Below are positions 25,447-34,070 of a DNA stretch of 49,687 nucleotides, one piece after another. Origin of the DNA: an uncultured Lachnospiraceae bacterium (lineage in GTDB: Bacteria; Bacillota; Clostridia; Lachnospirales; Lachnospiraceae); the NCBI GenBank assembly GCA_944376745.1, contig CALWDR010000112.1:1-49687 (forward strand), given 5' to 3'. Under the pieces are notes generated by a model. That model did not search any database. It saw only the letters and a list, made by a program, of their open reading frames with translations, and had not been told where the DNA came from. Position 1 is the stretch's first letter. Every line of letters starts with the position of its first letter. The translations under genes were made by a program, and so were the position numbers.

Positions 25447-26235
25447 CTATTCCAGAGCTCCTTCCTCATCGCAGGAAAAAGAAACGGTTTCCTCCCAGGC
25501 TTCGCCCTGATATTGTATGAGGAACGTCACCTGGGTAAGATTGTTCGTGTGAATCGTATCGTCAGCTTCCACCTGCCAGGAATCATCCAAAACCTCAATA
25601 TGTATCTGCGGTTCTTCCAGCATTGCTTCCGCCAACGCAGAGACGGCACTGTCAGGAATCAAAAAGTCCGCGGTGATCTCCGCATACCAGACGACATCCC
25701 CCTCCGCATCAAGACAGGACACCTCCTTTGCCGCGCGGATCTTTGTGGCCTTAGCCGGAGCCAGGGAATCTCCCTCTTCGGAAACGGGATAGGATGCAGA
25801 CTGGCCTGTCAGATCTATCTCCTCCAGATCGCCTCGAACAATCGTCTCCTCCAGATGAAACGCCTCCTCCTTCTCCGTTACAAGGTTTCCATCTCCCTTG
25901 CGGCGCCCATTTTCGTTCCCCAAAAACACTGCCAGAAAAATACCAAGCGCCAACAGCAGAAGGAACGCCGCCAGCAGGCAGATACGCCTTCGCCTGGCAA
26001 GTTTTCTCTCACGGATGATCGCTTCCCCGCTTTGTTCCTGGCTGAAGGATTCCGCGATTTCCTCCGGAGTCCCGAAGGTAGCCTCCAGCTTTTCCATAGA
26101 TACTTCCGAATGCTCGCTGCAATAACACTGCACACTCTCCGCCAGATTCTTAATATAAGCCTGCTTATTCCGACAGGAGGAGGGCAGGGATCTTCTGACG
26201 GAAGCGATGTATTTTCTGCACAATTTATTGTTCAT
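25447..26235 (-). CDS. HAAS/DUF6120-type membrane protein, PadR partner
   Basis: 262 aa. The first 75 residues contain the signature FGTPEEIAESF seen in small cytoplasmic domains that accompany PadR regulators (HAAS/DUF1700/DUF6120 group). One transmembrane helix (about residues 84-106) and an extracellular acidic domain of about 150 residues follow. It overlaps padR by 11 nt and has AGGAGGCAGATCGT as its own site. A role in sensing, or in holding the PadR signal at the membrane, is inference. Confidence 0.7.
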   Translation of the reverse strand: MNNKLCRKYIASVRRSLPSSCRNKQAYIKNLAESVQCYCSEHSEVSMEKLEATFGTPEEIAESFSQEQSGEAIIRERKLARRRRICLLAAFLLLLALGIFLAVFLGNENGRRKGDGNLVTEKEEAFHLEETIVRGDLEEIDLTGQSASYPVSEEGDSLAPAKATKIRAAKEVSCLDAEGDVVWYAEITADFLIPDSAVSALAEAMLEEPQIHIEVLDDSWQVEADDTIHTNNLTQVTFLIQYQGEAWEETVSFSCDEEGALE

Positions 26236-26584
26236 ACGATCTGCCTCCTGTCTCGTTACTCTTCTCTAAAATCTTCTGAATGGCCTGGTGCACCTGAAAA
26301 TAATCCTGCTGAAGCTCTTCCAGACGGTGAAGCCCCTGAGGCGTGATATAGTAATAAATCCTGGTCATCCGTTTCCCCACCAGCCGCCGTTCATCCTCAA
26401 TGAACCGATTATCCTGAAGCCTGTACAGCACCGGATATAAGGAACCTTCCGGAATATTAATGACGCCTTCACTCAGTTCCAGAATGGACTGTGAGATCTC
26501 GTATCCGTACATGGGTCCGTTTTTTAGTAAAGCCAGGGCCAGCATTTCTACAGAGCCCTTCTTGAAATTACTTTTGACTTCCAA
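26225..26584 (-). CDS. PadR-family transcriptional regulator
   Basis: 119 aa. Winged helix PadR core: KKGSVEMLALALLKNGPMYGYEISQSILELSEGVINIPEGSLYPVLYRLQDNRFIEDERR, then RIYYYITPQGLHRLEEL. The start is a TTG at 26584 with AAAGGAGGCG 8 nt upstream; an ATG at 26623 has no such site. It is divergent from the secreted-peptide/ABC cassette, which it most likely represses. Confidence 0.88.
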   Translation of the reverse strand: MEVKSNFKKGSVEMLALALLKNGPMYGYEISQSILELSEGVINIPEGSLYPVLYRLQDNRFIEDERRLVGKRMTRIYYYITPQGLHRLEELQQDYFQVHQAIQKILEKSNETGGRSYEQ

Positions 26585-26693
26585 TGGGACGCCTCCTTTC
26601 CTCTTCTTATTATCGTGTCTCATTATATACCACAAATCTTTTAATGTAAATATATAGGATACAAAAATATTTATAAATTTTAATATTATGATT

Positions 26694-26722
26694 GACATAG
26701 TATGAAATATGTGATATATAAT
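26694..26722 (+). promoter_or_regulatory. Promoter of the secreted-peptide/ABC cassette
   Basis: TTGACA (26694-26699), 17-bp spacer, TATATA (26717-26722), in a very AT-rich divergent spacer. The pair ACATA / TATGT (26697-26715) forms an inverted repeat within the spacer and is a candidate PadR site. A small hairpin (aatttac/gtaaatt, 26756-26776) lies in the leader. Confidence 0.6.
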
Positions 26723-26807
26723 TTATTAAATAGCCAAGAGGGGTTTTACTTACCGAATTTACTGCGCGCGTAAATTATAGAAAAAAAACAAAAAGGAGAA
26801 GTACCAT

Positions 26808-27245
26808 ATGAAACTTCGCAAACTAAGTGTTTTGTTCCTGACTGTCCTTGCCATGTCCACAGCAGCCAACGGCATCGCTCTGGCCGCTAACCACTCGGAC
26901 ACCGGCTACAGCTTCACCGTAGGCCCAGGATATGGCGCAAGAACGGAGTACCGTGAGAAGACGGATTCTTCCGGGGTGTATGTGTACAGCTTGTCCGGCC
27001 CCCGGCAGACCTATTTCTATGTGCTGAATCCATCCGGAACTATCAAGAATTCCGGGGAAGGTGTAGGTATCACATATCCGGGTAATAAATACCGAATTCA
27101 CACACATATCTGGGAGGACCGTTATACTGACGGCAATGTCGGTCCCACCAGATGCGCCCTTGCCAGCATCGACAATCCGTTTCCCGGTCAGAGCACAGGC
27201 GTGTGGAGTCCTGACTCCGTAGGCTCGTATCCATTTTGCAATTAG
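26808..27245 (+). CDS. Secreted small protein, possibly DUF2712 or lactococcin-972-like
   Basis: 145 aa. A signal peptide ends at ALA-ANHS (about residue 26), leaving about 119 residues rich in Gly, Ser, Thr and Tyr. There are two cysteines in the mature part (116 and 144) that could form one disulfide, and a WSPDSVGSYPFCN C-terminus. The opening DTGYSFTVGPGYGARTEYREKT recalls DUF2712-type secreted proteins that sit beside ABC cassettes; the match is from memory and weak. AAGGAGAAG site. It is the first gene after the PadR-facing promoter, so it may be an exported peptide or a substrate or ligand of the transporter system. Confidence 0.6.
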   Translation: MKLRKLSVLFLTVLAMSTAANGIALAANHSDTGYSFTVGPGYGARTEYREKTDSSGVYVYSLSGPRQTYFYVLNPSGTIKNSGEGVGITYPGNKYRIHTHIWEDRYTDGNVGPTRCALASIDNPFPGQSTGVWSPDSVGSYPFCN

Positions 27246-27304
27246 CAAAAAGTAAGCGTTGGGCGGCTCTCATGCCGCCCGCGCCTGCCAGAAAGGAGAA
27301 CCGT

Positions 27305-27988
27305 ATGCGAAAGAATCTATTGCTTCTGGGAATGGCATTTTTGCTCCTGTTTCAGCTTTCCGCCTGCTCCTACGTAGCCTTTGAGCAAAAGCTGCGGGGC
27401 TTCCCGCCAGCGGATACGGACATCGAAAGCAATACCGGGGAGGACCTCCCGGAGCAGTTCGATATTGACACGGAAACCGATATGGAACATCTGAAGCTGA
27501 GACAGATCGGGGACGAGATCACCATCAACGACGGGATCACGGAAATGTCTTACCGTGTGGATAAAGTCACCGTATATGACAATTTTGAGGAGGCGGGCCT
27601 GACCGCGGAAGATATGGGGTATATCTCAGGGGGACAGGAAAAAAATCCTTTTGTTCTGTTAGATATCACAGTGAAAAATAAAAAAGTCCTTCAGGAGACA
27701 GCCGATTATAACATCGCCGTCTTCCATCTGCTCAATCAGAAGATTCTAAACGACCCCTGGGTAGAAGCGCTCCCTGAAATGGCTTATTTCAGCGGCCACG
27801 CCCAGAACAGATTAGAATCCGAATATTTTCACTATGTGCTGAAAAAAGGCGGAGAGCTGCAGTGCCAGGTGGGCTGGATCCTGTATGGAGCCGTAAACAC
27901 CCCGGAAGATCTGGTACTCCATGTAGGCGCCAACATAGAGGGCACGGAATTTGTGGATCTGAACCAGGAAGGCATCAAGGAGGAATAA
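27305..27988 (+). CDS. Lipoprotein of the ABC cassette
   Basis: 227 aa. A lipobox (LFQLSAC) follows a hydrophobic signal, so the mature protein is anchored at the outer face of the membrane through Cys. The remaining part is acidic, with VLLDITVKNKKVLQETADYNIAVF resembling a DUF4352/DUF5028-like beta fold. Start at 27305 is supported by AAAGGAGAACCGT. It lies between the secreted protein and the first permease, 3 nt before the latter. Confidence 0.72.
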   Translation: MRKNLLLLGMAFLLLFQLSACSYVAFEQKLRGFPPADTDIESNTGEDLPEQFDIDTETDMEHLKLRQIGDEITINDGITEMSYRVDKVTVYDNFEEAGLTAEDMGYISGGQEKNPFVLLDITVKNKKVLQETADYNIAVFHLLNQKILNDPWVEALPEMAYFSGHAQNRLESEYFHYVLKKGGELQCQVGWILYGAVNTPEDLVLHVGANIEGTEFVDLNQEGIKEE

Positions 27989-27991
27989 CCT

Positions 27992-28873
27992 ATGGGGAAA
28001 ATGATGAAAGTGGAATTGACGAAAGCTTTCCGGGGGCGGTTCTTCCTGGCAGCGCTGGGGATCGCCCTGCTCATTGCCCTACTGCAGGTGGTATATCAGG
28101 CAGAAAATTATCAGAGCTATCAGGAAAGCGTCCAAAGAGCCGAGCTCTTTATGCAGGAAATGGAGGAGAATTATGAGCCTGGGAACCCCTATCTCCAGGA
28201 GTATACGCTTTTTAATCATTGGCTGTGTACCGATTATGTTTCGCTGACGGCCTCCCTTTTCTGGTTCCTGATCCCAATCCTGGCGCCGCTGGCCTACGGC
28301 TGGTCCTTATTTCTGGAGCGAAGGAGCGGCTATATCAAGAATGCGGTCTTACGTTCCTCACGGGCAGCCTATTTCTTCTCCAAGCTGGCCGCCGTGTTCC
28401 TTGCGGGAGGAACCGTGGCCACCGTGCCTGCGATCCTCAACGTACTGCTGGTGGCTTTGTTTGTGCCTGCCGTCCAGCCGGACATTGCATATAGCGTCAA
28501 CTATCCGGTCACCTATCCCACTATCTTTTCCTGGTTTTTCTACGCGATGCCCGTGCTGTACGTGGTGCTGAGGATCCTGCTGAATTTTGTGTTCGCCGGG
28601 GCGCTGGCCACCCTGAGCTACAGCCTGTCCTTCTGGGTACACAACCGTTTTGCGGTGGTGCTGCTGCCCTTTTTGCTGGCTCTGGCCCTCACCCACCTTC
28701 AATATCTGATACCGGCAAAGCTACACTACGCGGAATTTTCTCCCATGTATATCATGGGAGCCAACGGTTTCTACTATGAGCTTCCGGGGGTGGTACTGGC
28801 GGAGATCGGGATCCCGCTGGCGCTGAGCCTTATACTGGCGGCTGTCAGCAGCAGGAAATGTGAGATTTTTTAG
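27992..28873 (+). CDS. ABC transporter permease, first subunit
   Basis: 293 aa with about six hydrophobic segments (near residues 18-32, 82-108, 125-160, 185-220, 225-245 and 270-288). A soluble loop between the first and second segments (YQAENYQSYQESVQRAELFMQEMEENYEPGNPYLQ) matches the ABC-2 type permeases of bacteriocin-immunity or export systems. AAGGAGGAATAACCT precedes the ATG. Its end overlaps nothing; the ATPase start lies 22 nt downstream. Confidence 0.8.
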   Translation: MGKMMKVELTKAFRGRFFLAALGIALLIALLQVVYQAENYQSYQESVQRAELFMQEMEENYEPGNPYLQEYTLFNHWLCTDYVSLTASLFWFLIPILAPLAYGWSLFLERRSGYIKNAVLRSSRAAYFFSKLAAVFLAGGTVATVPAILNVLLVALFVPAVQPDIAYSVNYPVTYPTIFSWFFYAMPVLYVVLRILLNFVFAGALATLSYSLSFWVHNRFAVVLLPFLLALALTHLQYLIPAKLHYAEFSPMYIMGANGFYYELPGVVLAEIGIPLALSLILAAVSSRKCEIF

Positions 28874-28895
28874 AACGCAGAGAGGAGCTTGGACA

Positions 28896-29549
28896 ATGGC
28901 AATTATAGAATTAGATCATGTGACGAAGAAGATCCGGCGCCATACAGTCATCGATGATGTAACGGTTACCATACAATCCGGTGCGATCACCGGCCTGAAG
29001 GGGATCAACGGCTCCGGGAAGACCATGCTGATGCGGCTGGTTTCCGGATTGATCCTGCCTACCAGGGGCAATATCCATATCAACGGCGAGCTTCTGGGCA
29101 AGGACATTACCTTCCCCAGAAGCATCGGGGCCCTCATTGAGAACCCGGCGTTTCTGGACGCCTACTCAGGCTTCGACAATTTAAAGCTCCTGGCCTCCAT
29201 CCAAGGGAAGATAAGCGACGAAGAGATCGAGGACGCGATCCGCCGGGTGGAATTAAATCCCAAGGACAAGAAGAAATACCGGAAGTATTCTCTGGGAATG
29301 AAGCAGCGGCTGGGGATTGCGGCGGCCATCATGGAACACCCGGAGATACTGATACTGGACGAGCCAACCAATGCCCTGGACAGCGACGGCATCGAGCTGG
29401 TGCGGGATATCCTGCACCAGGAGAAGGAACGCGGGGCGCTGATCCTGATCTCCTGTCACGATCTGCATATTTTACAGGCACTGTCAGACGTGATCTATGT
29501 GATGCGGGAGGGGCGCCTGTCCCCCTATGAGAAGGAGGCGTCGGAATGA
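28896..29549 (+). CDS. ABC transporter ATP-binding protein
   Basis: 217 aa. Walker A GINGSGKT (about residues 35-42), signature YSLGMKQRLGIA, Walker B ILILDEPTNALD and switch His in SCHD are all intact. Start at 28896 is supported by GAGAGGAGCTTGGACA; a longer frame to 28860 lacks a site. It resembles the BcrA/lantibiotic-immunity type of ATPases that pair with two permeases. Its stop overlaps the next start (ATGA). Confidence 0.93.
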   Translation: MAIIELDHVTKKIRRHTVIDDVTVTIQSGAITGLKGINGSGKTMLMRLVSGLILPTRGNIHINGELLGKDITFPRSIGALIENPAFLDAYSGFDNLKLLASIQGKISDEEIEDAIRRVELNPKDKKKYRKYSLGMKQRLGIAAAIMEHPEILILDEPTNALDSDGIELVRDILHQEKERGALILISCHDLHILQALSDVIYVMREGRLSPYEKEASE

Positions 29550-30160
29550 AAAAACTCATGCGGTGCGGAATACCGGCGGCATTGGCCGCCCTGTGCCTGA
29601 CTGCCTGGGGCGTCCGGGTATATCAGCTGAACGCAGGGATCGAGAAGTTACAGACGGTTCGATATGCCATGGGGGAACAGGTGGAATTCGGCGACGATTA
29701 TTACTACCACCCTTCCGAAAGCCTGGCGGGATACGATATCACCGTGCAGTCCGCAACCCTGATGTCCTACAGGGACTTTGTGGAGGCCCACGGGGAGACG
29801 GTAGACTATATGCCGGAGGAGAGCAGACCATATTATGTGTACGATATCGTGGTCCTGCTCCACAACAAAAATACAGAAGCAAATCAAACTGCAGGGATCT
29901 CTTTTATTGACATGGCTTTGGAAACAACGGACGACTTCGTCCAGGTCAATAATGACCTGTTTGCCCTGCTCTATCCCGATTTAGAAGGAGCCATGGGGTA
30001 TGCCCTACGGCCCGACAGCAGCGCGATCATGCATATGCCCTATGCATTTGGACATCCCAGCGGCAAGAAATGGGCCTATGAAGAGATTCTTTCCAAGAAC
30101 TGGTATCTGCGGCTGTCTCTGTATCCCACAAAGAAGCTGATCGCGGTGACGGAATCATGA
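29546..30160 (+). CDS. Membrane-anchored extracytoplasmic protein (DUF5028-like)
   Basis: 204 aa. An uncleaved N-terminal hydrophobic segment (residues 8-24) is followed by an extracellular domain containing YMPEESRPYYVYDIVVLLHNKNTEANQT and KNWYLRLSLYPTKKLIAV. The WGVRVYQLN and YAMGEQVEFG pattern recalls DUF5028 proteins of ABC cassettes; assignment tentative. It parallels the lipoprotein at 27305 in size, location and the GEQVEFGDDYYY / GDEITINDG style N-terminus, so the two may be distant paralogues. Confidence 0.65.
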   Translation: MKKLMRCGIPAALAALCLTAWGVRVYQLNAGIEKLQTVRYAMGEQVEFGDDYYYHPSESLAGYDITVQSATLMSYRDFVEAHGETVDYMPEESRPYYVYDIVVLLHNKNTEANQTAGISFIDMALETTDDFVQVNNDLFALLYPDLEGAMGYALRPDSSAIMHMPYAFGHPSGKKWAYEEILSKNWYLRLSLYPTKKLIAVTES

Positions 30161-30197
30161 GAACTTGGAAACAAACGCGAAAAGGAGGGACACAACT

Positions 30198-31055
30198 ATG
30201 TTCTTGAAGCTGTTTTGGTACGATATTCGTGTGGGGATCCTGCAGCAATACCGGAAATGGCTGATCGCTGCGGCGGTTTTTACGGCGGCCTGTCTGGAAT
30301 ATCTAATGGAATTTCAGGGATACAGCAGCGGTCTGGCCATGGAGACATACCCTGTAGAGGAAACGCTGGGGAATTGCCTGCTGTTTCTCTTCCGGGGGAT
30401 GCAGGAATACAGCATTACCCTGGATAAACAATTTACCTTCCCGGCAATCTGGATGCTGATGTATCTGCTGGCGGCCTACTTTACTCTGTATTACCCTTAT
30501 CACGACCTGGAAGAGAGCGGGCAGAATCTGCTGCTCCGCTCCGGCGGCCGCAGGCTCTGGTGGATCTCTAAGTGCGTCTGGAACCTGCTGTCGGTGGGTC
30601 TGTTCTTTGGGATAAGCTGGATCGTAACAGGCCTTTTCTGTCTCTTTCGGGGAGTGCCGCTGACCATGGAGCTTTCGGAGAACATGGCGGCGTTTCTGGA
30701 GATGCGGTACAGCCAGCTGTGGCTGCATCCCAAGGAAATGACAGTGGAGATCCTGCTGCTGCCCATGCTGGTGATGATGGCCTGCTGCCTTCTGCAAATG
30801 ACCTTATCCCTGTTTCTGCGTCCGATCTTCAGCTTTATGGTGACGGGCACGATCCTTCTGGCGTCCGTTTATTATCAAACTCCTGCCCTGATCGGTAACT
30901 ATGCCATGACGATCCGAAACAGCAAGCTATTGGTGGGTGGCATGGATACAACCGTGGGTATTTTATTTTCTCTTGGAATTTTGGCAGGAGCCTTTCTGGT
31001 GGGCCTTGTGAAATTCAAGCGGTATGACATTCTGCGGAAGGAAAATGTCGCATAA
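30198..31055 (+). CDS. ABC transporter permease, second subunit
   Basis: 285 aa with six predicted transmembrane segments. MFLKLFWYDIRVGILQQYRKW opens the protein, followed by a large loop with YSITLDKQFTFPAIW. Start at 30198 is supported by AAAAGGAGGGACACAACT. It completes a cassette with the ATPase and first permease: two different permeases per ATPase, the arrangement seen in bacteriocin self-protection or peptide export. A terminator follows. Confidence 0.8.
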   Translation: MFLKLFWYDIRVGILQQYRKWLIAAAVFTAACLEYLMEFQGYSSGLAMETYPVEETLGNCLLFLFRGMQEYSITLDKQFTFPAIWMLMYLLAAYFTLYYPYHDLEESGQNLLLRSGGRRLWWISKCVWNLLSVGLFFGISWIVTGLFCLFRGVPLTMELSENMAAFLEMRYSQLWLHPKEMTVEILLLPMLVMMACCLLQMTLSLFLRPIFSFMVTGTILLASVYYQTPALIGNYAMTIRNSKLLVGGMDTTVGILFSLGILAGAFLVGLVKFKRYDILRKENVA

Positions 31056-31089: not shown

Positions 31090-32808
31090 TTACGCCATCT
31101 CATACACGCTGCCCGTCCCGCAGCCCTCCAGCTCCACCTTCCTTACGAGGCAGTCCTTCTCATGGAAGGCGGCTCCGTAACAGAGTACCTTCTTATACCC
31201 TTTCAGGAACTTCTTCGCATATCGCTTCACATCCATCTGCCGTAGGGCCTTCCGGCAATCCTCCTCCATCTGCGCCTCCGTCCGTGAGCGCTTCACCTCT
31301 ATGAGAATGGCAGTCCGGTTCTTCCGGTCCTTCACCACCACATCCGTTCTTCCCAGCCCGTTCTCCCCATTGGAATTTACAATATAACCGGCTCCCGAAA
31401 ACAGCCCCGCCACGAAGGCGTGGTAATAATCCTCCCTGTAGTCGTAATAGCTGATGGAATCGCTCAAAATCTCCGAAACGGCCTCCGTGACGGTCTCCTC
31501 GTCCCCCGCCCACCAGGCGGCGAACATATCCCCACGCTCCTGTGCCTTCACAGGCGCCGTCTCCCGGAACCATTCCACAATGGTATCCCCGAAAATCGTC
31601 CGCACCTCCCGGTTGGGTATCCGCAGGCAGAATTCCCCGGCCTCCGGCTTTTCCCTCTGTTCCGCTTCCCGGTCCCGGGTCAGGTACCCCGTCAGATAGA
31701 GGATTCCCCAGGAATCGCTCTCCGAAGCCTCCCGAAAATCATAGGTGGATTCCTCGCTGACCCGCACCCGCACATAACCTCCTGCCAGAAGGGTCTCAAA
31801 TTTATCGTTGACCTCTAGATCCTCCCTGCCGATAAAGCGCCGGATAATATCGTTGTGGCTGGTGTCCTTCCAGTAATTGCCCGGCCTGGTATCCGGGTCC
31901 GCCCCAAGGTCGCTCACATAATTTAAAACATCCCAGGGACAGTAAATATCATAGGGTCCAAACTGATAGCCGTCGTACCACTCCTTCACCGCCAGGCCGT
32001 GGGAGCTTAAGCCCGCCTTCGCAAGAATCCCCTCCACCTCCCTGGCCGTAAAGCCAAAGCAGTCCAGATAATTTTTCCCTGCCACGGAATTTACTTTAAA
32101 ATGATTGGTTCCCGTAAAAATGCTCTCCCTGGCAACCCGCAGACAGCCGGTGACAACGGCAAATTTCAGGAAATCGTTGGTCTTAAAAGCACTGCTCATC
32201 AAGCTGCGGATCACGTCCAGCATTTCCGAATAATACCCGTACTCGCTGGCTTTTGCCAGGGGCACGTCGTATTCGTCGATCAGCAGGATGGCCGGGCGGC
32301 CATAGTGGGCATGCATCATACGGGTAAGCAGAAATAAGCTGTTTCGCACCTCCGCCTCTGTGGCAGTTCTGGCTTTCAGTCTCGCAAAAGAGGCTCTGTC
32401 ATCCTTGTCAACCTTCTCACTTTCCGCCAGATCATCATGCTCAATGCACACACTGGAAAGATTAAAGCATAGCTGGTCATAGGATGCGCGAAATGTCCTG
32501 TTAGCCACATCCTTAAAGCTGATAAACAACACCGGCCACTGATTTCTCCACTCCCGGCACAGCTCCGCATGCCTGGTGATTTCCAACCCCTCAAAAATTT
32601 CCCGGCTGTCCTTACGGATATCAAAGAAATTTTTCAGCATGCTCATAGCCAGCGTCTTGCCGAACCGGCGGGGGCGCGTGATCAGATTCACCTTGAACCT
32701 GTCCTGCAGCAGCTCCACGATCAGCTTCGTCTTATCTACGTAATAGCCCCCGCTTTCCCGGAAGGACGCGAAATTCTCCTCGCCGATGGGTATCACAATG
32801 TTCGCCAC
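31090..32808 (-). CDS. AAA-ATPase-like protein with PD-(D/E)XK nuclease-type C-terminus
   Basis: About 572 aa. The N-terminus reads YYVDKTKLIVELLQDRFKVNLITRPRRFGKTLAMSMLKNFF, with a Walker-A-like RPRRFGKT, and ILLIDEYDVPLAKA as Walker B. The C-terminal region holds RTDVVVKDRKNRTAILIEVKRS, a PD-(D/E)XK-like core (DUF1703 group). Such proteins are numerous in gut Bacteroidetes and clostridia and their function is unknown. The start is a GTG at 32808 with AGGAGG 8 nt upstream; a GTG three codons earlier abuts the site and is less likely. Confidence 0.88.
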   Translation of the reverse strand: MANIVIPIGEENFASFRESGGYYVDKTKLIVELLQDRFKVNLITRPRRFGKTLAMSMLKNFFDIRKDSREIFEGLEITRHAELCREWRNQWPVLFISFKDVANRTFRASYDQLCFNLSSVCIEHDDLAESEKVDKDDRASFARLKARTATEAEVRNSLFLLTRMMHAHYGRPAILLIDEYDVPLAKASEYGYYSEMLDVIRSLMSSAFKTNDFLKFAVVTGCLRVARESIFTGTNHFKVNSVAGKNYLDCFGFTAREVEGILAKAGLSSHGLAVKEWYDGYQFGPYDIYCPWDVLNYVSDLGADPDTRPGNYWKDTSHNDIIRRFIGREDLEVNDKFETLLAGGYVRVRVSEESTYDFREASESDSWGILYLTGYLTRDREAEQREKPEAGEFCLRIPNREVRTIFGDTIVEWFRETAPVKAQERGDMFAAWWAGDEETVTEAVSEILSDSISYYDYREDYYHAFVAGLFSGAGYIVNSNGENGLGRTDVVVKDRKNRTAILIEVKRSRTEAQMEEDCRKALRQMDVKRYAKKFLKGYKKVLCYGAAFHEKDCLVRKVELEGCGTGSVYEMA

Positions 32809-33015: not shown

Positions 33016-33155
33016 CCCGGCCCTTTCCTCCAACATCAGCCGTGCGCGGTCCCGGCCCTTTCCTCCAACATCAGCCGTGCGCGGTCCCGGTCCTTTACTC
33101 CAGGATCAACCGTGCGCAGTATCGGCCCTTTACTCCAGAATCAGCCGCACGCAGC
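33016..33155 (-). repeat. 35-bp tandem array copying the glucokinase 3' end
   Basis: Four units of exactly 35 bp start at 33016, 33051, 33086 and 33121. The unit at 33121 carries the gene's last codons and TAA stop; the three further units are downstream degenerate copies of that gene end (ccggccctttcctccaacatcagccg type). Confidence 0.88.
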
Positions 33156-34070
33156 CGTAGATCCCGGCGTCGTTGCCAAGGGTTGCCAGCGCGAATTTCG
33201 TCTCTTTGCAGGAAGAAAAGGCCTCCCCCCGGAAACGCTCCTGCACCGCGTCCAGCAGGGGCTGGCCGGCCTTGGACACGCCGCCGCCGATGACGAAGAT
33301 CTCCGGGTCCACCACGCAGGAAATAATGCTTAAGCCCCTGCCCAGCACTCCGGCAAATTTGTCCACGACCCCTGCGGCCACCTTGTCCCCGGCCTTGTAA
33401 GCGTCGAAGACATCCTTGGCCGTCACATTTCCCACGCCGTCCAGTGCGCTGGCCTCATGCTCTCCCGCCAGGGCCTGTCTGGCCAGGCGCGCCAAACCGG
33501 TGGCGGAGCTGTACTGCTCCAGACATCCCTTCCGTCCGCAGCCGCAGACCTCCGTCTCATGGGGGTTCATGGTGATGTGCCCGATCTCGCCGCCTGCGCC
33601 GTGAGCTCCGGCCACAACCTTGCCGCCCACGATGATGCCGCCGCCCACGCCGGTTCCAGAGTCACCATCACCACGTCCTGATAGCCCTTGCCGCCGCCCT
33701 GCCACATTTCGCCCAGAGCCGCCACATTGGCGTCATTGGCGGCCTTCACCGGGATACCGGACATTTTCCCGGACAGCTCCTTCGCCACAGCCACATGGCC
33801 CCAGCCCAGGTTCACGCAGACAGAGACCTCTCCGTTTGCGTCCACCGGCCCCGGGATCCCGATCCCGATTCCCTGAATCTCCTCCAGGGCGATCTGCTTC
33901 TCCGCTATCTTGGCCTTCAAAGCCGCCGCCACATGGTCCAGAATGTATTTTCCATTTTCGCTGGTGTCCGTGGGAATCTCCCATTTTTCCAGCAGGACGC
34001 CTGTGGTCTCAAAAAGCCCGATCTTGCAGGTGGTCCCACCCACGTCCACGCCAAAGCCATATTTTTTCAT
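33130..34070 (-). pseudogene. ROK-family glucokinase, single-base frameshift
   Basis: Read together the two frames make a full glucokinase of about 313 aa: MKKYGFGVDVGGTTCKIGLFE (ATP-binding loop), GIGIGIPGPVD, NDANVAALGE, then GTGVGGGIIVGG, the zinc-binding CGCGRKGCLEQY and VIGGGVSKAG. The shift is near 33656: the minus strand reads CTGGAACC where CTGGGAACC would keep the frame (VTL-GTGVGGG). One G is missing from a short G-run. This could be a real inactivating mutation or a sequencing error. GAGGGATAAAA site before the ATG. It is the last gene of an operon with the two membrane protein genes at 34087-35270. Confidence 0.85.

Follow-up and report, generated by a model that had tools for sequence, protein, structure and literature searches.

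The locus at positions 25447-31055 of a contig from an uncultured Lachnospiraceae bacterium (CALWDR010000112.1; the window hereafter, meaning the whole stretch of 49,687 nucleotides) raises the question of what a small secreted protein does at the head of an ATP-binding cassette (ABC) transporter cassette. The gene of the secreted protein (SP, encoded at 26808-27245) is followed by genes for a lipoprotein, two permeases, one ATPase and a DUF5028 protein, and is faced by a PadR/HAAS-like pair; all the parts listed in the initial annotation of this DNA are present. That annotation likened the arrangement to bacteriocin or immunity cassettes with an exported effector, and the comparative evidence fits this proposal, with the antibacterial role a prediction. 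The same gene set stands under peptide quorum-sensing switches in relatives, and therefore the locus is most likely a protein antibiotic, SP, encoded with its immunity cassette. The predicted activity is held with about evenly balanced confidence.

A search with the single SP sequence gave matches in 15 of 299 genomes of the family, some of the weakest of which are not true members. An SP profile found relatives in 30 of 397 family genomes, or 28 of 334 genera, and in 3 of 321 genomes of the class besides the window's own. SP alone, run against named genome contigs, detected no relatives; the ATPase was used as the scan query because alignments A1 and A2 have no sufficiently conserved stretch. 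Altogether 45 SP loci were studied, including six from the ATPase scan (L061, L063, L065, L067, L068 and L101). In seven of the 39 found without using the transporter, the contig runs out shortly after SP or within the cassette (L037, L046, L196, L198, L208, L210 and L211). A LanF-like ATPase lies downstream of SP on the same strand in all 32 loci with room for it (in L045 by a six-frame search), and a look among the 39 loci for SP without the transporter gave no example other than at contig ends. The neighbours are thus kept together, as the initial annotation needed for its proposal. Eight cassettes with this type of ATPase and both permeases have no SP gene (L048, L049, L053, L057, L058, L062, L064 and L066). 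A six-frame profile search of the SP-less cassettes found no SP, and the upstream stretches of L048, L049, L053, L057, L058 and L062 show no recognisable SP remnant. A transporter that accompanies SP in 32 of 32 loci and also occurs in eight cassettes alone is the pattern expected of an effector with its immunity.

The cassette also occurs on a Vescimonas plasmid (L056), and its Bacilli form on Priestia plasmids. Copies in tandem were observed for SP and lipoprotein in L047 (7563-9744) and L196, for SP and permease A in L201, and for lipoprotein, permease A and DUF5028 in L053 (4811-10919); two whole transporters lie side by side in L061 (2242-10316). The window's own genome has permease-A-like and LanF-like genes without SP on contigs C239 (L158, 7-2878) and C226 (L159, 254-7727), the latter together with a two-component pair and a large lipoprotein. 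An unannotated DUF2712-ABC cassette lies at 6989-10955 of L150 (NZ_CP030101.1), a 2.9-Mb Listeria monocytogenes "plasmid" record that, judging by its size, is evidently a chromosome.

The transporter consists of permease A (27992-28873, 293 residues), the ABC ATPase (28896-29549, 217 residues) and permease B (30198-31055, 285 residues, with a weak DUF2705 match). Each permease has about six predicted transmembrane (TM) segments, so that the LanFEG make-up of one ATPase with two different six-TM permeases is found in the window. The best-ranked curated model for the ATPase is lantibiotic protection (LanF, TIGR03740), which it matches with 183.6 bits, below the cut-off of 309.75. The same model ranked best in each of the 12 cassettes tested, and none of them reached its cut-off. 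In the LanFEG/LanI plan, the peptide is bound by the lipoprotein, and the pump drives it out of the membrane (PMC5786555). Two proteins in the window could be placed similarly: the DUF5027 lipoprotein (27305-27988, 227 residues, lipobox LSAC; Pfam 4.3e-8, over the cut-off) and the DUF5028 protein (29546-30160, 204 residues; Pfam 3e-14, over the cut-off). The model of the latter (predicted local distance difference test, pLDDT, 92.5) has an N-terminal anchor helix and an immunoglobulin/telokin-like sandwich, for which YxkC is a fold neighbour (Z 10.9, root-mean-square deviation 3.5 over 130 residues). Across 35 loci, SP distances correlate with those of permease A (0.29) and DUF5028 (0.30; p 0.001), and this persists after allowing for the ATPase, with which SP shows no correlation (0.10, p 0.11). 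Such co-variation is as expected if these outward-facing parts recognise SP.

The control genes before SP are exchanged from relative to relative. A PadR gene and a HAAS-like/DUF6120 gene face SP in the window, L035 and L045. AgrB is encoded upstream in eight SP loci, among them L211, where the contig stops right behind SP; in L038, L042, L044, L195, L202, L203 and L209 it is accompanied by a GHKL kinase and/or a LytTR regulator, and in five AgrB loci (L038, L042, L044, L195 and L203) an AgrD-like peptide gene directly precedes SP. Two of the four peptides tested, including that of L048, score over the AgrD cut-off and two just below; in L048 the same agr unit precedes an SP-less cassette. A ComX-Q-P-A-like set faces a DUF2712-DUF2705-ABC cassette in L143 (10621-14494, genome G882), comprising a 56-residue peptide ending in GDQWL (no model match), a polyprenyl synthase, a kinase and a LuxR-type regulator. 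In L198 (82-5893, genome G1344) and L204 (2221-12277, genome G289), SP is immediately preceded by genes for a LytTR-type regulator, a kinase, a LanA-like peptide of 48-51 residues ending in CC, and LanM (>700 bits, cut-off 304). A LanFEG-like cassette follows SP in L204, and no peptidase-type exporter was seen in that stretch. No LanM-like or other lanthipeptide biosynthesis gene was found in the window, and L198 and L204 are the only relatives with LanM. Other loci have a kinase and a regulator (L207, L208 and L212), a regulator only (L040), an ECF sigma factor (L056 and L194) or a BlaR1-type M56 protein (L067), and about half of the SP loci have no recognised control gene within 4.8 kb. That SP comes first behind agrD-like, comX-like or LanA-LanM units supports its being the effector.

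The LanM-linked loci could also be explained by a resistance module, the main alternative, in which a LanFEG/CprABC-like pump and the anchored proteins would remove a modified antimicrobial peptide, the cell's own or its neighbours', with SP as a secreted accessory (decoy or binder) induced by an envelope sensor. The control by PadR-HAAS, ECF sigma, BlaR1-type and kinase-regulator units without a peptide gene is of the sensor type that this explanation calls for, and the transporter make-up matches that of CprABC-type resistance operons (PMC5786555). However, LanM is present in only 2 of the 45 loci. Agr- and ComX-type peptides are signals and seldom antimicrobials, and known LanFEG and CprABC systems work without such a secreted protein. 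A resistance module is thus considered possible but rather unlikely. A further proposal is that SP is a ligand or co-sensor acting on the cell through the anchored proteins, which the initial annotation had raised as an envelope-stress system signalling through the lipoproteins. A kinase gene lies immediately before SP in L207 and L212, and DUF5027 and DUF5028 are outward-facing anchored proteins; however, the agr-, ComX- and LanM-type loci have a separate gene for the peptide signal, and neither of the anchored proteins carries a signalling domain in the cytoplasm. Such a role for SP is regarded as very improbable. The envelope-stress idea keeps a footing in the control genes, in that PadR-HAAS dyads are proposed membrane-signal sensors and ECF- and BlaR1-type units occur elsewhere, but signalling by SP through the lipoproteins is unsupported here.

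SP has 145 residues, with a predicted signal peptide that ends in ALA (cleavage after residue 26) and a mature part of about 119 residues starting with ANHSDT; the 119 residues first assigned to SP are therefore right as the mature length, not for the whole protein. Residues K51, Y58, W133, S134 and D136 are invariant across 21 relatives, and the C-terminal motif G.WSPDSVG.YP is shortened in some of them to WSPDS[VI] as the exact end of the protein. Both cysteines initially reported are present in the mature protein but do not form a conserved pair. Only the position of the first recurs in relatives, and a disulfide was rejected because the second is not conserved. The window SP matches no family model and does not reach the cut-off of Pfam DUF2712 (PF10916, 22 bits). 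This model is, however, matched by 8 of the 15 members of the first SP alignment (best 3.3e-12), and its cut-off is exceeded by two proteins of the WSPDS type, from Ligilactobacillus ruminis (L101) and genome G460 (L144), and by the relative in L071. Comparison of the SP profile with that of the Bacilli-type DUF2712 proteins aligned only the signal-peptide region. Because this direct comparison is weak, the link is based on the Pfam model and the intermediates. SP also has the head position in a DUF2705/ABC cassette that is a feature of DUF2712 proteins, the permease B-DUF2705 link being probable only. On these sequence grounds SP is best described as linked to DUF2712 and is not filed as a formal member. 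SP, which the initial annotation could not match to a nameable bacteriocin, is thus no orphan but linked to a family that has no assigned function. In the literature searched, no paper mentioning DUF2712, DUF5027, DUF5028 or DUF2705 was found.

An AlphaFold model of SP from 15 sequences is a beta jelly-roll (pLDDT 78, predicted template modelling score 0.69). Among the fold neighbours listed are PirA (Z 8.9, root-mean-square deviation 2.4 over 89), Ena (8.7) and carbohydrate-binding modules (~7); a search of solved structures by the SP sequence gave nothing convincing. The resemblance to Ena fibre subunits and carbohydrate-binding modules, together with the quorum-sensing-like control circuits, would suit a secreted structural or binding protein (an adhesin, a fibre or a carbohydrate-binding protein) in a quorum-sensed surface programme, with the transporter serving assembly or another envelope task. 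However, the matches are generic jelly-rolls, with Z of 6-9 to many unrelated families. The Sec signal makes a dedicated exporter unnecessary, the ATPase is nearest to lantibiotic protection, and transporter cassettes exist without SP. This explanation is accordingly judged unlikely. Small secreted proteins precede similar ATPases in L080 (2298-2732), L110 (5727-6119), L116 (6174-6608) and L104 (5863-6294); they have no Pfam match, often end in G-[WFY], and are possibly further effector types like SP.

Returning to the antibiotic-immunity reading, SP is favoured as the effector on account of the LanF-like pump plan, the co-variation and the precedent of mediterrocin, an unmodified beta-sheet bacteriocin that a gut Lachnospiraceae secretes through Sec and encodes next to an ABC gene (PMC12345188). 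The gene content, the order, the kept linkage and the exchange of control genes are observed directly, and secretion, anchoring and the transporter class are supported by sequence and models; the toxicity, target, immunity and PadR mechanism are inferred as follows. SP would be exported by Sec, apparently unmodified, as a jelly-roll protein and released against related bacteria. The ABC-2 pump, the lipid-anchored DUF5027 and the membrane-anchored DUF5028 would keep SP off the producer's membrane, as LanFEG/LanI do. PadR would hold transcription down until its HAAS-like partner senses a cue from the outside or the membrane, a switch suggested by analogy with the proposed alternative to two-component systems (PMC11237479), and peptide quorum-sensing circuits would have replaced this unit in relatives. 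Several observations weigh against the antibiotic-immunity reading. The co-variation is modest, with p-distances near saturation, and the variability of SP does not exceed that of the permeases (median identity 0.31 vs. 0.28-0.29); faster evolution of SP was looked for and not seen. The LanM-linked loci L198 and L204 and the ECF, BlaR1 and PadR-HAAS control fit a resistance module as well. No known activity of any DUF2712 protein was found in the searched literature, and that YybN of Bacillus subtilis is a DUF2712 protein is our presumption, backed by a match in that control genome.

A wider proposal is put forward only tentatively, as a possibility: DUF2712-type proteins may constitute a new class of protein antibiotics, folded, unmodified and exported by Sec, with LanFEG-like self-immunity, in Bacillota and Coriobacteriia. 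Their control units would be exchanged as blocks, the peptide and its modifying enzyme being AgrD/AgrB, ComX/ComQ or LanA/LanM together with a kinase and a regulator, and a lanthipeptide would then serve as the pheromone where agr loci have theirs. If the antibiotic-immunity reading is true, an uncharacterised system of this kind is present in 30 of the 397 sampled family genomes and 28 of the 334 genera, and also in Bacilli and Coriobacteriia. A testable function would follow for DUF2712, DUF5027, DUF5028 and the B. subtilis yybN operon, whose function is unknown (PMC11841835), and a single effector cassette standing behind agr-, ComX- or lanthipeptide-type units in turn would be nature's own experiment in quorum-sensing rewiring.

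Within the window, the PadR-family repressor (26225-26584, minus strand; Pfam PadR 1.3e-18) is read as 119 residues from a TTG start at 26584 behind AAAGGAGG; an ATG-started frame extends to 26698, and the L035 homologue starts at the point equivalent to the TTG reading. Its gene is overlapped by that of the proposed sensor partner (25447-26235, minus strand, 262 residues), a membrane protein with one predicted TM segment that matches DUF6120 with 41.2 bits (cut-off 27) and, over nearly the same stretch, HAAS with 16.8 bits (cut-off 27). Homologues of the partner lie beside PadR in L035 and L045. The range first given for the unit, 26225-31055, covers PadR to permease B but leaves this partner outside. 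Between the PadR and SP genes is a divergent control region of 223 nucleotides with 27% G+C (26585-26807), in which TTGACA-17-TATATA upstream of SP, with a similar stretch in L035, is a candidate SP promoter assigned by eye and missing from the computed consensus list. A short dyad in it, ACATA-N8-TATGT, was weighed as a possible PadR site but not adopted, since it is not clearly kept in L035 and DNA this rich in A+T is expected to contain 5-bp arms by chance. The genes from SP to permease B all lie on the plus strand with gaps of 59, 3, 22, -4 and 37 nucleotides; the tight spacing initially described holds for the overlap and the short gaps, but the widest exceeds the 3-35 nucleotides given. 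In 200 shuffles of the region the longest plus-strand frame was 200 codons (median 123). Five of the six plus-strand genes exceed 200 codons, SP alone being shorter, and SP and the other cassette genes recur in identical order in dozens of genomes. The frame lengths and the recurrent gene order, which includes SP, indicate that the genes are not due to chance. Downstream of permease B lies a convergent AAA-ATPase-like/PDDEXK_9 gene (31090-32808, minus strand), and an N-terminus similar to that of its product follows the cassette in L045 (11799-13385) and L202. Further along, a ROK-type glucokinase-like gene (33130-34070, minus strand) is present as two overlapping frames (33567-34070 and 33130-33705) and looks frameshifted, in the sequence or the assembly.

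The known systems closest to the cassette include its Bacilli form, DUF2712-(DUF2705)-WxPxxD-DUF2705-ABC. In both, a single run of genes starts with the secreted protein and continues with permeases and a LanF-like ATPase. Permease A is homologous to the first Bacilli permease (98.4%, 255 columns), permease B is probably homologous to DUF2705 (68.8%, 177 columns), and the small secreted proteins are linked through DUF2712. In contrast, the Bacilli cassette has three permeases against two in the window, which adds the anchored DUF5027 and DUF5028; it is controlled by Rok rather than PadR-HAAS, and the window SP is not picked up by the DUF2712 model. Of 14 control genomes, only that of B. subtilis has a match to DUF2712, in a protein that we take to be YybN, the first gene product of yybNMLKJ, the identity of the cassette being probable. 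The yybN operon is a Rok target of unknown function tabled with sboA-alb, sunA and sdp (PMC2978689, PMC11841835), and its repression by Rok together with these operons (PMC2978689) supports an antibiotic role; YybJ2KL is described as a transporter of unknown function (PMC11466899).

The PadR pair resembles the PadR-HAAS envelope-stress dyads, proposed as membrane-signal sensors and an alternative to two-component systems, in that the PadR gene overlaps a membrane gene with a HAAS-like N-terminus (PMC11237479). It differs in that HAAS is below the cut-off and DUF6120 scores better, with no PspC, Toastrack or LiaI-LiaF domain in the pair. The lactococcin 972 family, which includes mediterrocin, has like this cassette a Sec-secreted, beta-rich, apparently unmodified protein beside a membrane protein and an ABC ATPase, whereas the window protein is larger and has two permeases and anchored proteins. 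Profile comparison of lactococcin 972 with SP gave 5.8% probability over 3 columns, with only two reference sequences, so that a remote relation is possible. DUF1430, the seven-TM partner of lactococcin 972, was matched by no cassette protein of the window, and the lactococcin 972 fold (2LGN) is not among the SP fold matches listed, a listing that excludes nothing. A relationship of SP to lactococcin 972 is thus not supported at the sequence level. LanFEG and CprABC, transporters of lantibiotic immunity and resistance (PMC5786555), have in common with the window one ATPase, two different six-TM permeases, adjoining LanI-like anchored proteins and the nearest curated ATPase model. They differ in that the window ATPase is below the model cut-off, lanthipeptide genes are lacking and the conserved partner is a folded Sec-secreted protein. 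The cassette is therefore a member of no described family and does not have the features of lactococcin 972; it follows a bacteriocin-immunity-like plan that shares part of the LanFEG features.

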